Assembly (NCBI RefSeq): GCF_900163695.1
Contig: NZ_FUIC01000027.1
Span: 94,807 to 158,806 of the forward strand
Length of the DNA stretch: 64,000 nucleotides
From: Gulosibacter sp. 10
GTDB taxonomy: Bacteria; Actinomycetota; Actinomycetes; Actinomycetales; Microbacteriaceae
Direction: 5' to 3'
The notes under the pieces are model-generated. The model did no database searches. It saw only the letters and a program-made list of their open reading frames with translations, and had not been told where the DNA came from. Shown here piece by piece: positions 8,671-12,972 of this stretch. A program made the translations under genes and the position numbers. The stretch's first letter is position 1. Each line of letters opens with the position of its first letter.

Positions 8671-10455
8671 TTGGCCTCAGCCCGCCAGAAGAATCTGCGC
8701 TCCACCTTCCCGATGATCGCGGTGGGCCTCGTGGTGATCGTCGTCCTGCTGCGGCTGTTCAACCTGCAGGTCGTGGAGGCCGCGACCATCAACTCCGAGG
8801 CGGACGGCCGCCGCGGCGTCGTCTCCACGCTGTGGGGCACCCGCGGCTCCATCGTGGATGCGAACGGGAATGAGCTGGCGAGCTCCGTGGACCGCTTCCA
8901 CGTGACCTACGCCCCCGTGAACATGAGCGACTTCCCCGTCATCAACCCCGCCACCGACGAGGAGGAGACCGTCACGGTCGAGGACTCGCTCGCGGCCATC
9001 GCGGAGATCACCTATCAGGACCCGCAGGAGCTGCTCACGAGCGTCGAGGCGACGGTGGCGGCGAATCCCGAATCGCAGTTCGGCTACCTCGCGAGAAGCA
9101 TCACGCTCGAGCAGTACCAGGAGATCCGGGATCTGCGCATCCCGTGGGTCTACTTCGAGCGCCTGCCGCAGCGGGTGTACCCGAACGGGGCCGTGGCCGG
9201 GAACGTCACCGGCTTCATGGGGGACGACGGCCCCCTGGCCGGGATCGAGCTGCAGTACGACTCCTGCCTGGCCGGGCAGAACGGCGAGGAGACGTTCATC
9301 CGCTCGCGGGACGGGGTCGCGATCCCCGGCTCGGTGGTGACGCTCACCGAGCCGACGCAGGGCGGCACCATCCACACGACGATCGATCTCGACACCGACT
9401 GGCGCATGCGCCAGATCCTCGCCGAGCAGGTCGAGGAGATGGAGGCGAAGTACGGCACCCTCACCGTGGTCGAGATCGCCACGGGCGAGATCGTCTCCGC
9501 CGCGGAGTACCCCGGCGTCGACCCGAACCCGGACGCCTTCACCGAGGTCGATCCCGAGTACCGCGGCGCGCTCACGTTCTCCGCACCCTACGAGCCCGGC
9601 TCGATCATGAAGCCCGTCACCGCGGCGATGGCCTACGACGCCGGGGTGGTCTCGCCCGACGAGACGATCCGCGTGCCCGACACCTGGCCGGGCTCCGAGG
9701 CGGAGTTCGGCGACGACGTGTCGCACGCGCCGGCCGATATGAACATGAACGGCGTCATGGCGGTGTCCTCGAACGTGGGCATCGTGATGTTCGGTCAGCG
9801 CATGGACTCGGCCACGCGGTACCAGTACCTGCAGGACTTCGGCTTCGGCTCGCAGACCGGCGTGGGTTTCATCGGCGAGGAGCCGGGGCTGCTGTACCCG
9901 CCCGAGCAGTGGGACTCGCACACGAACCTGAGCATCATGTTCGGCCAGGGCGTCTCGACGACGGCAGCGCAGATGGCGGGCGCGTACCAGATCCTCGGCA
10001 ACGGCGGCACCCAGGTGCCGCTGCAGCTCGTGTCGGGGTGCGAGGCGGCGGACGGCACCATGACCGAGGTTCCGGACGGGCAGACCCAGCAGGTGGTGTC
10101 GGCGGAGGCCGCCGCGCTCTCCCTCGAGGCGATGGAGGCGACCGCGACGACCGGCTCGGTGGCCGACCAGGTGCAGGTTCCGGGGTATCGTGTCGGGATC
10201 AAGACCGGTACCGCGCAGGTGGTCGATCCCGAGACCGGCCTGTACGAGGAGGACAGCTACATCACGTCGATGGCCGGCGTCGCGCCGATCGACGATCCCA
10301 AGTACGTCGTGCTGGTGACCCTGGCCAACCCGGTTAAGATCACTGGTAGCGCCGCGACCGCTCCGGCCTGGCAACAGGCGATGTCGTACGTGCTCGCCGC
10401 CAACGAGGTGGCGCCGTCACCGCAGCCGTGGCCCGAGATCACGGTCGAGAACTAG
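8671..10455 (+). CDS. ftsI: Septal peptidoglycan transpeptidase, penicillin-binding protein FtsI (PBP3)
   Basis: The 594-residue class B penicillin-binding protein has an N-terminal membrane anchor (about 15-35), a pedestal domain and a C-terminal transpeptidase domain. The active-site motifs are visible: S311-x-x-K in PGSIMKP, the SSN triad at 366-368, and KTG at 511-513. It crosslinks septal peptidoglycan with FtsW. The start is TTG at 8671 with GGGAAGGGA just upstream; the protein then begins MASARQKNLRSTF and leads directly to the anchor. It is 41 bp after the ftsL-like gene and 16 bp before the murE-like gene. The organism likely has B-type peptidoglycan, so the substrate stem peptide may be unusual. 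Confidence 0.96.
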   Translation: MASARQKNLRSTFPMIAVGLVVIVVLLRLFNLQVVEAATINSEADGRRGVVSTLWGTRGSIVDANGNELASSVDRFHVTYAPVNMSDFPVINPATDEEETVTVEDSLAAIAEITYQDPQELLTSVEATVAANPESQFGYLARSITLEQYQEIRDLRIPWVYFERLPQRVYPNGAVAGNVTGFMGDDGPLAGIELQYDSCLAGQNGEETFIRSRDGVAIPGSVVTLTEPTQGGTIHTTIDLDTDWRMRQILAEQVEEMEAKYGTLTVVEIATGEIVSAAEYPGVDPNPDAFTEVDPEYRGALTFSAPYEPGSIMKPVTAAMAYDAGVVSPDETIRVPDTWPGSEAEFGDDVSHAPADMNMNGVMAVSSNVGIVMFGQRMDSATRYQYLQDFGFGSQTGVGFIGEEPGLLYPPEQWDSHTNLSIMFGQGVSTTAAQMAGAYQILGNGGTQVPLQLVSGCEAADGTMTEVPDGQTQQVVSAEAAALSLEAMEATATTGSVADQVQVPGYRVGIKTGTAQVVDPETGLYEEDSYITSMAGVAPIDDPKYVVLVTLANPVKITGSAATAPAWQQAMSYVLAANEVAPSPQPWPEITVEN

Positions 10456-10471
10456 AACACCGCAGGAAAGC

Positions 10472-11557
10472 ATGCCCCGATCCAGCCTTCGTCCGCACCA
10501 TCCCCGGGCGCGCATCCTCTCCGAGATGTGCGCCGAGTTCGGGATCGAACCCGTGAGCGACGGCTTCGACGCCGACCAGGTCGAGGTCACCGGCGCGGTG
10601 AGCGCCGCGGACGGCGTGGAGGAGGGCGACATCTACGTGGCCGCGCCGAGGTGGGTCGACGCCCCCGGCGAGGCGTTCGCGACCGCGGTGGAGCGCGGCG
10701 CATCCTGCATCCTCACGGACGCCTCCCTCGCGCCGTACGCGGAGGGACTCGACGTGCCCGTGCTCGTCGTGGAGGACGCGCGGCTCGCGCTGGGCCACAT
10801 CGCGCAGTGGGTCTACCGCACCGACCCGAAGACGCCCCGGCTGATCGGGGTCACCGGCTCCCTCGGCAAGACCTCGATCGTCTACCTCCTCGACAACCTG
10901 CTCGACGCGCTCGGGGTGAAGACCGGCATGTCGACGAACCGGCAGCGCCACGTGGGCGAGGAGCGCATGGACGCCGGCGGGCTCGCGCCCGAGGCCGACG
11001 AGCTGCACGCGATGCTCGCGCGGATGCGCGAGGTCGGCGTGCACGTCGCCGCCGTCGAGCTGACGGACGAGGCGGTCTCGGAGCACCACATCGCGGGGCT
11101 GTACTTCGACGTGGTCGGCTATCCCGACGCCGGGACGGCGCTCGAGGGCGGCGCGGCCGCCCGGTTCGAGGCCTCCGTGCAGCTGTTCGCCCCGGAGCAC
11201 GCCCAGCGGGGCGTGGTGAACGTCGACGGGGAGATGGGGCGCCGGCTCGTCGAGGAGACGCGCATCCCGGTGACGACCATCGCCTCCGCCGCCGGCGAGG
11301 GCGCCGACTGGTGGGTCGAGTCGGAGCCCCTCGACGAGGGCATCCGGTTCACGATGCACGGCCCGGAGGACCGCGAGCTCCGCTCCTGGACCTCCCAGGA
11401 GGGCCCCTACGCAGCGATCAACGCGGGTTCCGCGGTCCTCATGCTGGACAGTGCGGGCTGGGACGTCGAGCAGATCCAAGCCGCCCTCGACCGAGTCGAC
11501 GGCATCCACCTCGCCGCGGAGGGATCCGCGGCGCCAGAGAGCAGGGGGAGCGCATGA
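10472..11557 (+). CDS. MurE-like protein lacking the C-terminal ligase domain; probable pseudoenzyme
   Basis: This 361-residue gene occupies the murE slot between ftsI and murF, but MurE is normally about 490-520 residues. The N-terminal and central domains are recognisable. GDIYVAAP matches the MurE GDLFVALPG block, and a P-loop remains (GSLGKTS, K133). Catalytic features are eroded. The MEVSSHAL motif reads VELTDEAV (195-202), the DHLDYHG metal-binding stretch is absent, and the lysine normally carbamylated before LF is Ser235 (FEASVQLF). The frame ends about where the C-terminal domain should begin, at VDGIHL in place of VPGRFE. There is no frameshift: start, ribosome binding site and ATGA coupling to murF are all intact. 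A working MurE must then be encoded elsewhere. Function here is unknown. Confidence 0.8.
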   Translation: MPRSSLRPHHPRARILSEMCAEFGIEPVSDGFDADQVEVTGAVSAADGVEEGDIYVAAPRWVDAPGEAFATAVERGASCILTDASLAPYAEGLDVPVLVVEDARLALGHIAQWVYRTDPKTPRLIGVTGSLGKTSIVYLLDNLLDALGVKTGMSTNRQRHVGEERMDAGGLAPEADELHAMLARMREVGVHVAAVELTDEAVSEHHIAGLYFDVVGYPDAGTALEGGAAARFEASVQLFAPEHAQRGVVNVDGEMGRRLVEETRIPVTTIASAAGEGADWWVESEPLDEGIRFTMHGPEDRELRSWTSQEGPYAAINAGSAVLMLDSAGWDVEQIQAALDRVDGIHLAAEGSAAPESRGSA

Positions 11558-12972
11558 TCCCGATGACGCTCGGCGAGATCGCCGACCGCCTATCCGGCCG
11601 TCTCGTCACGACTGAGTCCACCGATGCCGGCGCCGTCGTCCGCGGCCGGAGCGACACCGACTCGCGCAATATCGGCGCCGGCGACATCTTCTTCGCGAAG
11701 CCGGGGGAGGCCACCGACGGGCACCTGTTCGCGCCGAAGGCCGAGCAGCAGGGCGCGGCGCTGGCCGTGGTCGAGCGCGAGCTCGAGCTCGGCATCCCGC
11801 AGATCGTCGTGGAGGACGTCGTCGCGGCGCTCGGGGCGCTGGCCACCGAGGTCGTCGCCCGCGTCCGCGCGCTCGGCCGCATGCGCGTCGTGGCGGTCAC
11901 CGGGTCGAACGGGAAGACCACGACGAAGAACCTCCTGAAGGCGATCTTCGAGCGGCACGGCAACGTGGTCGCGCCGATCGCCTCCTTCAACAACGAGGTC
12001 GGCGCGCCGACCACCTTCCTCCAGGTGGACGAGGGCACCGACACCCTCATCGCCGAGATGGGCGCCAGCAAGGTGGGCGAGATCCGCACCCTCACGGAGA
12101 TGGCGCGGCCCGACATCGGCATCGTCCTGATGGTCGGCCTCGCCCACGCGGGCGAGTTCGGCGGCATCGAGAGGATCGAGCAGGCCAAGTCCGAGATGAT
12201 CGAGGCCCTGCGCGAGGGCGGCATCGCGGTGCTCAACGCCGACGACCCGCGCGTCGCCCGCATGGCGGCCAAGGCCCCCGGCCGGATCGTGCGCTTCGGG
12301 CGCGGCGAGCAGGCCGACGTGCGGGCGAGCGGCATCGAGGTCTCCCAGGAGGGGACCCGCTTCGTGCTGCACGTGCCCGATCACGAGCCGGTCCAGGTGC
12401 GCTTCCCGGTCATCGGCGAGCACCACGTGATGAACGCCCTGGCGGCGACGGCGGCGGCGTACGCCGCCGGCATCCCGGCGACGGACGTCGTCGCCACGCT
12501 CGCCGAGGTGACCCGCGCCGAGCGCTGGCGCATGGAGCTCCTCGTCCGGGAGCCCATCACGGTCATCAACGACGCCTACAACGCCAACCCCAACTCGATG
12601 GCCGCGGCGCTCCGCACGCTCGCGCAGATCGCCCGGCCCGGGCAGCGCACCGTCGCGGTGCTCGGCGAGATGAGCGAGCTGGGCGAGCAGTCGGTCGCCG
12701 AGCACGACAAGCTCGGCGAGCTCGCCGTGCGCCTCGGCATCGCCCAGACCGTCGTCGTGGGGCGCGGGGCCCGGCCGCTCTACCTGGCGGCGGTGGCGCA
12801 GGGGAGCTGGGATAATGAGGCGACGTTCGTCGAGGACGCGGATGAGGCCTTCGACTTCCTCCGCGACTACCTGCGCAGCGGGGACCTCGTGCTCGTGAAA
12901 TCCTCCAACTCGGCCGGCCTGCGGGTACTGGGCGACCGGATCGGAGACTATGTGAAGGGACTCCTCGCTTGA
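11554..12972 (+). CDS. murF: UDP-N-acetylmuramoyl-tripeptide--D-alanyl-D-alanine ligase
   Basis: The 472-residue MurF adds D-Ala-D-Ala to the UDP-MurNAc-tripeptide in the cytoplasm. The ATP-binding loop GSNGKTTTK (117-125), the FNNEVGAP block and the C-terminal [13 protein letters not shown] motif are all intact, in contrast to the preceding MurE-like gene. ATG at 11554 overlaps the upstream stop as ATGA. A second Met lies three codons downstream and could be the actual start. The 3' end overlaps mraY (TTGA). Since the gene is normal, the pathway upstream of it must supply a tripeptide from a MurE encoded outside this window. Confidence 0.96.

Follow-up and report, generated by a model that had tools for sequence, protein, structure and literature searches.

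In the window, the 64,000-nucleotide stretch of Gulosibacter sp. 10 DNA that was analysed, the murE slot of the dcw cluster is occupied by a gene of 361 codons, here called pseudo-murE (Table 1). As the first-pass annotation had described, it is preceded by a ribosome binding site, is coupled to murF by an overlap of stop and start codons, and encodes no C-terminal ligase domain. What is left is a UDP-binding-type domain 1 and an ATP-binding-type central domain: a Pfam scan of the 361-residue protein found Mur_ligase_M (PF08245, 41.2 bits), and neither Mur_ligase nor Mur_ligase_C matched. DUF1727, the domain of a short second 'murE' that we take to be MurT-type, is absent from the Pfam matches up to an E-value of 1. 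The MurE model TIGR01085 gives 104 bits, below its cut-off of 257.3, and NF001124 gives 133.8 bits against a cut-off of 476, which is missed also by p2 (412.6) and p3 (424), two full-length MurEs described below; TIGR01085 is thus the fairer MurE test. That the decay is specific to the murE slot holds as well, since MurF, MurD and MurC, along with MraY and FtsW, pass their NCBIfam cut-offs. MurG lies slightly below its own (248.5 vs 250.25), and FtsI matches PBP models with scores under their cut-offs.

Table 1. Coordinates of the genes and motifs discussed; entries without a locus number refer to the window
Feature	Position	Strand	Remarks
ftsI (PBP, 594 aa)	8671..10455	+	upstream neighbour; PBP models
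Shine-Dalgarno-like AGGAAA of pseudo-murE	10464..10469	+	just 5' of ATG
pseudo-murE (dcw-slot MurE pseudoenzyme)	10472..11557	+	361 aa; between ftsI and murF
residues 5-26, S(L/I)RPHHxxARxLSE(M/L)CAxFG segment	10484..10549	+	R7, P8, H10, L16, F23 in 9/9 degenerate proteins
residues 104-118, RLALGHxAxWVYRTD segment	10781..10825	+	A106, L107, G108 in 9/9 degenerate proteins
P-loop GSLGKTS, residues 129-135	10856..10876	+	Asn of GTNGKT lost; Lys and Thr retained (8/9 degenerate proteins)
VELTDEAV, residues 195-202	11054..11077	+	replaces IEVSAQA(V/L)
Ser235 at the carbamylated-lysine position	11174..11176	+	K in 22/22 intact dcw-type MurEs and 13/13 p2
ATGA overlap, pseudo-murE stop / murF start	11554..11557	+	
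murF	11554..12972	+	intact downstream neighbour; TIGR01143 403.8 bits, cut-off 288.6
p2	L094:8434-10107; also L095, L096, L097, L110, L111, L112		beside nrdHIE
p3, 509 aa	L099:6229-7755 (G000 contig 49)		adjoins Clp-type ATPase gene (Pfam)
dcw murE of G004	L018:1417-2541		
g6 degenerate ORFs	L149:838-2061 (G146), L153:673-1689 (G090), L166 (G190)		

The gene was compared across all 11 Gulosibacter genomes (G000-G010), of which G000 is the window's own; G001 is G. bifidus, G002 G. chungangensis, G003 G. faecalis, G005 G. macacae, G006 G. molinativorax ON4T, G007 G. sediminis and G008 strain ACHW.36C. Some '[Zimmermannella]' species have since been transferred to Gulosibacter, according to the portion of PMC6113628 consulted. 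The dcw murE of G009 is known as two pieces at contig ends and stands outside the Shine-Dalgarno comparison, the species tree and the dN/dS pairs. AGGAA precedes nine of the ten dcw murE genes compared, the exception being G004. The ATGA overlap with murF is found in the window, G002 and G004, and a gap of 52-56 nt separates the two genes in G003, G007 and G008.

Catalytic motifs and overall fold

The motifs were read against 22 intact dcw-type MurEs, of which G001, G010, G133 and G177 had their dcw position checked by synteny and the rest are dcw-type by tree; 20 of them, from other Microbacteriaceae genera, were chosen from the best-scoring loci and are not a random sample. In this alignment the pseudoenzyme has serine in place of the carbamylated lysine, the DHLDxx loop (DHLDD) is missing, EVSAQ has become ELTDE, and only the GKT part of the P-loop is left, the asparagine of GTNGKT being Leu131. 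The DxxPR motif of amino-acid specificity is absent together with the whole C-terminal region. The loss of the asparagine is the weakest of these signs of decay, given that aspartate takes its place in three of the 13 otherwise complete-looking p2 proteins. The first-pass annotation had called the gene a MurE pseudoenzyme with decayed central motifs, and the 22-sequence alignment agrees: the protein is homologous to MurE, essential catalytic residues are missing, and it is probably without ligase activity. A DSR motif, whose loss had been counted as a further sign, is missing from 21 of the 22 intact proteins and found in one, so that its absence says nothing on decay and the argument was dropped.

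A second set of residues separates the degenerate proteins from one another. The window's clade (G000, G002, G006) no longer has HG(A), LTT of the LTTPE motif or the arginine of RHR, all three of which we take to be UDP-MurNAc contacts, and G004 too has lost HG(A) and LTT; HGA, LTTPE and the RHR arginine are retained in G003, G005, G007 and G008. What the degenerate proteins share is found elsewhere. Among 81 columns invariant in the 22 intact MurEs, 28 are retained in all nine degenerate proteins, including (window numbering) R7, P8, H10, L16, F23, G41, G52, D53, A106, L107, G108, H179, A183, R184, E187, E196, P241, R264, P266, A278 and W280. None of the 13 p2 proteins has H10, F23 or R264, so these three seem unnecessary for ligation; the His and Phe in question belong to an RPxHP...F signature and are lacking from p2 in 13 of 13.

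When solved structures are ranked by sequence or by fold, mycobacterial MurEs come first and the plant MurE-like protein PAP11 takes third place. With MurE of M. tuberculosis (2wtz/2xja) and M. thermoresistibile (8g6p) the pseudoenzyme shares the gene slot and the first two domains, the fold comparison giving identities of 27% and 25%; it differs from them in the C-terminal ligase domain, the carbamylated-lysine position, the DHLD loop and the P-loop asparagine. An AF2 model, built from a small alignment of 6 eligible sequences, has a mean pLDDT of 51.7; its Foldseek match to MurE (E 3.1e-19, TM 0.57) fits the fold family, and the model is too poor for reading surface patches.

MurE paralogues and the history of the slot in Gulosibacter

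If the dcw copy is inactive a real MurE must exist elsewhere, as the first-pass annotation had argued, and a search of the window's genome (3.65 Mb, 55 contigs) gave two full-length candidates: p2 (P0002, contig 43), with 342.7 bits to TIGR01085, and p3 (P0003, contig 49), with 398 bits. P0002 has GTNGKT, EVSAQ, DHLDDY, the lysine, DYGHTP and DYNPRFEDP. Throughout the genus p2 retains the lysine, DHLD and DYNPR, with GTDGKT in G004, G005 and G009. It is a paralogue of the pseudoenzyme, present in Gulosibacter and genus g67, with the same domain order and 38% identity over the common part; in contrast to the pseudoenzyme, all 13 p2 proteins retain the lysine, DHLD loop and DYNPR (GTDGKT replacing GTNGKT in three). 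p3 occurs in five of the 11 genomes and gave no match in four of the nine whose dcw MurE is degenerate; p2 is therefore the better candidate for the working MurE genus-wide and probably is that enzyme. p3 itself, read by eye, has the lysine and MEVSSHSL but TEDDLK where DxxPR is expected, a MurE class with a possibly unusual amino-acid choice; the sole MurE above the cut-off in G146 and in G231 resembles p3 by eye.

Degenerate MurEs occupy the dcw slot in nine of the 11 Gulosibacter genomes, a recurrence beyond chance. Intact p2 is present in all nine, and in neither of the two genomes whose dcw MurE is intact (G001, G010). The lysine, the DHLD loop and the GTNGKT asparagine are lost in every one of the nine degenerate proteins; those of G003, G007 and G008 are full length though catalytically dead in their motifs, and the C-terminal domain is gone in G000, G002, G004, G005, G006 and G009. 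A final REAGW is retained in G005 and G009 and fits an internal in-frame deletion. The decay is graded, with catalysis lost first at full length and the C-terminal domain afterwards. The dcw MurE of G004 is the most decayed in the genus, with no P-loop, no clear Shine-Dalgarno sequence and a very long branch, its frame still open; it may be on the way to a true pseudogene.

A species tree was built from seven dcw proteins of 10 Gulosibacter and two g67 genomes; the G004 murG (133 aa available) was left out of it, and murC and ftsQ were excluded from counts since a number of loci break off within these genes or ahead of them. It places G001/G010 within the genus beside G003/G007/G008 (support 100; root next to G004/G005, 80), and the MurE gene tree, from which the long-branched p3 was omitted, recovers the same pairing with support 99. 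In the MurE tree the Gulosibacter dcw MurEs form a clade with support 100 that includes the pseudoenzyme. Since the intact pair is nested inside the genus, at least two losses of catalysis must have occurred, except in the case that G001/G010 had an intact copy restored to them. The p2 lineage stands apart from all dcw-type MurEs (support 100) and is common to genus g67, where both copies are intact in four of the five genomes examined and the fifth (G133) has the dcw copy only. Overall, this pattern fits a reciprocal loss, of p2 in the bifidus lineage and of dcw catalysis in the others.

The genomic neighbourhood of p2 can be followed through the genus, with names in the nrd region taken from Pfam matches of the G006 proteins. 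p2 adjoins nrdH in all seven Gulosibacter loci read (G000, G002, G003, G004, G005, G006, G008) and is followed by an MFS gene in six, G002 being the exception. G177 of genus g67 has an nrdH-MFS junction without p2, while the nrdH site of G001 and G010 has neither p2 nor the MFS gene, with no MFS match above threshold anywhere in either genome. Loss of the MFS gene is no proof in itself, because G002 retains p2 without it.

The first-pass annotation had looked for the reason in the B-type peptidoglycan of the family. This is not supported, as the motifs are kept in 20 of 20 dcw-type MurEs of other family genera, chosen from the best-scoring loci, and in G. bifidus; the presence of p2 is a better correlate of dcw decay. 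The diamino acid is no guide either: the consulted part of PMC6113628 gives 'DAB or D-ornithine' for the genus, a genus-level entry that fails to separate species with and without the pseudoenzyme.

Selection on the remaining domains and their possible role

Constraint on the remaining protein was estimated between Gulosibacter pairs by NG86 counting. For the one truly close pair, G007-G008, dN/dS of residues 1-345 is 0.094 [0.056-0.142], compared with 0.330 [0.188-0.568] for the C-terminal domain and 0.048 for six neighbouring genes; for G003-G008, which shares branches with the former, the values are 0.256 [0.186-0.343], 0.788 [0.538-1.174] and 0.178. The sharpest data thus concern full-length proteins and not the truncated form of the window. 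Permuting codons between the segments gives p about 0.001 for either pair. The domain pattern is opposite in p2, whose C-terminal domain is the most constrained part (0.023 vs 0.073 for G007-G008; 0.109 vs 0.275 for G003-G008), whereas that of the pseudoenzyme drifts; in the intact dcw MurE of G001-G010 dN/dS is even by domain (0.070, 0.048, 0.058). The differences between G007 and G008 arose in an already inactive protein, because their common catalytic losses predate the split. The dS of residues 1-345 is no lower than that of the C-terminal part in either pair, so the constraint acts on the protein and an overlapping gene or RNA constraint need not be invoked. In the window's clade the G000-G006 pair, at high dS, gives 0.292 [0.214-0.394] for residues 1-345, next to 0.305 for p2 and 0.196 for six neighbours. 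Residues 1-345 are thus under purifying selection after the loss, at about the strength of p2, and less sharply so for the window's clade. Of the original argument that an intact frame implies selection for a non-catalytic role, the selection is backed by dN/dS; the open frame alone is no proof.

Conservation in the same six species shows where the pseudoenzyme departs from p2. Over the whole common length it is the less conserved of the two (identity 0.47 vs 0.59), yet it exceeds p2 in the N-terminal 25 columns (reference 16-40, the residues 5-26 segment; 0.66 vs 0.29) and in reference columns 111-130 (0.72 vs 0.58). The two are about equal in columns 41-70 and 331-362, and in the remaining stretches the pseudoenzyme lies below p2, lowest from DHLD to the lysine (0.22 vs 0.71). 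Retention of dcw-specific as against MurE-shared residues makes a weak contrast, Fisher p ranging from 0.017 to 0.34 over four cut-offs (retained/lost 7/5 and 22/32, p 0.34; 6/6 and 15/39, 0.17; 11/5 and 22/32, 0.085; 10/6 and 15/39, 0.017). A comparison in which degenerate N-termini were more alike than intact ones (0.61 and 0.59 vs 0.44) was discarded as confounded, six sequences of one genus being set against eight from across the family.

The safest conclusion is that selection maintains the first two domains of the pseudoenzyme for a function other than catalysis. Our main reading, to which we give a probability of roughly 0.6, is that a MurE-derived pseudoenzyme was kept in the dcw cluster for an adaptor- or scaffold-type role while catalysis moved to p2. 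The Gulosibacter ancestor would have had two working MurEs, the dcw copy and p2, the latter inserted next to nrdHIEF. The ligase reaction would then have passed to p2 in most lineages, and the dcw copy would have shed first the catalytic residues and later the C-terminal domain, its first two domains being retained by purifying selection for a non-catalytic job. That function is probably protein docking in the wall or division machinery, with the RPHHxxARxLSE segment and the domain 1/2 region binding a putative partner that belongs to the divisome or acts in the cytoplasmic Mur steps; candidates are FtsI, FtsW, MurG, MurF and proteins of the SepF or Wag31 type. A scaffold role is favoured because the dcw location is kept, because the signature of the best-kept N-terminal segment is absent from p2, and because Mur synthetases of M. 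tuberculosis interacted with FtsZ, FtsW, FtsQ, Wag31 and a SepF orthologue (PMC3605390, in the part consulted). The same part of that source counts against it in reporting Mur-Mur interactions as absent, and so does G004, with no P-loop, no clear Shine-Dalgarno sequence and a long branch.

The docking function would be one that intact actinobacterial MurE also performs besides catalysis. Taken further, the dcw MurE of actinobacteria might always have had two jobs, ligation and N-terminal docking, which Gulosibacter split between two proteins; this wider claim is tentative, and the odds are rather against it. The gene is missing from related genera, so a docking role, if there is one, cannot be universal.

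The strongest rival, in our view an unlikely one, makes the pseudoenzyme a regulatory subunit of p2 (or MurF) that binds p2 and tunes its activity by ATP through the P-loop. Pseudoenzymes often regulate their active paralogue, and the strict co-occurrence with p2 (9/9) and the P-loop Lys and Thr kept in eight of nine proteins would suit such a subunit; G004, however, has both the ORF and p2 but no P-loop, and other genomes of the family have their MurE elsewhere with the slot empty. Improbable, too, is a relic in slow decay, made redundant by p2, whose similarity to MurE is left over without present function. The loss of catalytic residues and finally of an entire domain, the advanced state of G004, the overall conservation below p2 and the complete disappearance of the ORF in related genera would all be expected of it. 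A relic is hard to reconcile with the dN/dS of 0.094 since the G007/G008 split, near the 0.073 of p2, with open frames in eight complete genes and both G009 pieces across at least two independent lineages, or with a Shine-Dalgarno sequence retained in every gene compared except that of G004. Less credible still is a sensor of UDP-MurNAc-dipeptide or another nucleotide, or a protein with residual ATPase or altered ligase activity: the P-loop in eight of nine proteins and the HGA and LTTPE of G003, G005, G007 and G008 would allow it, but the lysine, the DHLD loop and the C-terminal domain are missing, and HG(A) and LTT are lost in G004 and, with the RHR arginine, in the window species and its two closest relatives, which disfavours the UDP-MurNAc-peptide sensor that the first-pass annotation had proposed.

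Several known systems resemble the pseudoenzyme in part. That a MurE homologue can be put to new use within another machine has a precedent in PAP11, angiosperm MurE being a functionally divergent, peripheral component of the plastid polymerase; PAP11 is a plant plastid protein whose polymerase contact runs partly through the C-terminal domain that the pseudoenzyme does not have (PMC12681378, in the part consulted), and no observation ties the Gulosibacter protein to RNA polymerase. In Bordetella a MurE-MurF fusion and a MurG scaffold offer a precedent for MurE in Mur assemblies, where it is physically grouped with neighbouring Mur enzymes; that MurE is active and fused to MurF (PMC6420597, in the passages available), whereas the Gulosibacter protein is a separate polypeptide without the catalytic motifs, and its gene is joined to murF by translational coupling only. 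Relatives of Streptomyces, again in Actinobacteria, have a second MurE-like protein of about 400 residues with DUF1727 at its C-terminus (PMC7601586, in the part consulted). No such domain was found in the pseudoenzyme, whose gene occupies the murE slot of the dcw cluster and whose place in the tree is among the dcw MurEs. In the literature searched, with most subscription journals outside the search, no paper joining 'MurE' and 'pseudoenzyme' was found, and among the matches listed for a second, truncated or homologous MurE, those consulted for a second murE concern that DUF1727 protein (PMC7601586) or point mutations and describe nothing of this kind.

Whether Mur ligases are also structural members of a wall-building complex has long been asked, and the essential nature of the genes makes the question difficult to approach by experiment. 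In Gulosibacter, evolution seems to have separated the presumed structural part from catalysis on at least two occasions, in named, deposited species and with the intact sister G. bifidus as a control. If p2 works as MurE, pseudo-murE should be removable without stopping peptidoglycan precursor synthesis, and any phenotype would report the non-catalytic role; if the two-job reading is true, Gulosibacter would be a natural separation-of-function variant in which the docking role can be seen by itself.

The murE slot in other Microbacteriaceae

Among 249 Microbacteriaceae genomes, 17 from 9 genera (L144-L160) have no p2-type match at E 1e-60. In 15 of these ftsI is followed by murF with at most about 130 nt between them and the slot ORF is gone; 14 of the 15 have a full-length MurE above the cut-off elsewhere, the exception being G196 (93% complete). 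The operon therefore needs no ORF there, and the least likely explanation, that the frame is kept in cis to couple ribosomes to murF or prevent polarity while the protein itself is idle, is suggested by the ATGA overlap in the window, G002 and G004 and is contradicted by these 15 genomes, by the 52-56 nt gaps to murF in G003, G007 and G008, and by amino-acid-level constraint at normal dS. Matches to TIGR01085 below the cut-off near murF in the 17 genomes were considered as further pseudo-MurEs and rejected, as they are MurF, MurD and MurC. MurE replacement appears to have happened repeatedly in the family, and once catalysis moves away deletion of the dcw copy is the commoner outcome in these genomes, from which Gulosibacter differs.

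The remaining two genomes, G090 and G146, still have a degenerate ORF in the slot and a full MurE elsewhere; the ftsI part of the G090 stretch examined is too short to be called. The two scanned ORFs of genus g6 matched no NCBIfam (E 1e-8) or Pfam (E 1e-5) family. With the ORF of G190, counted by match alone with its neighbours unchecked, MurE-like ORFs that degenerated independently of those in Gulosibacter form a second set in the small genomes of g6, in three of five genomes and 31-32% alike.
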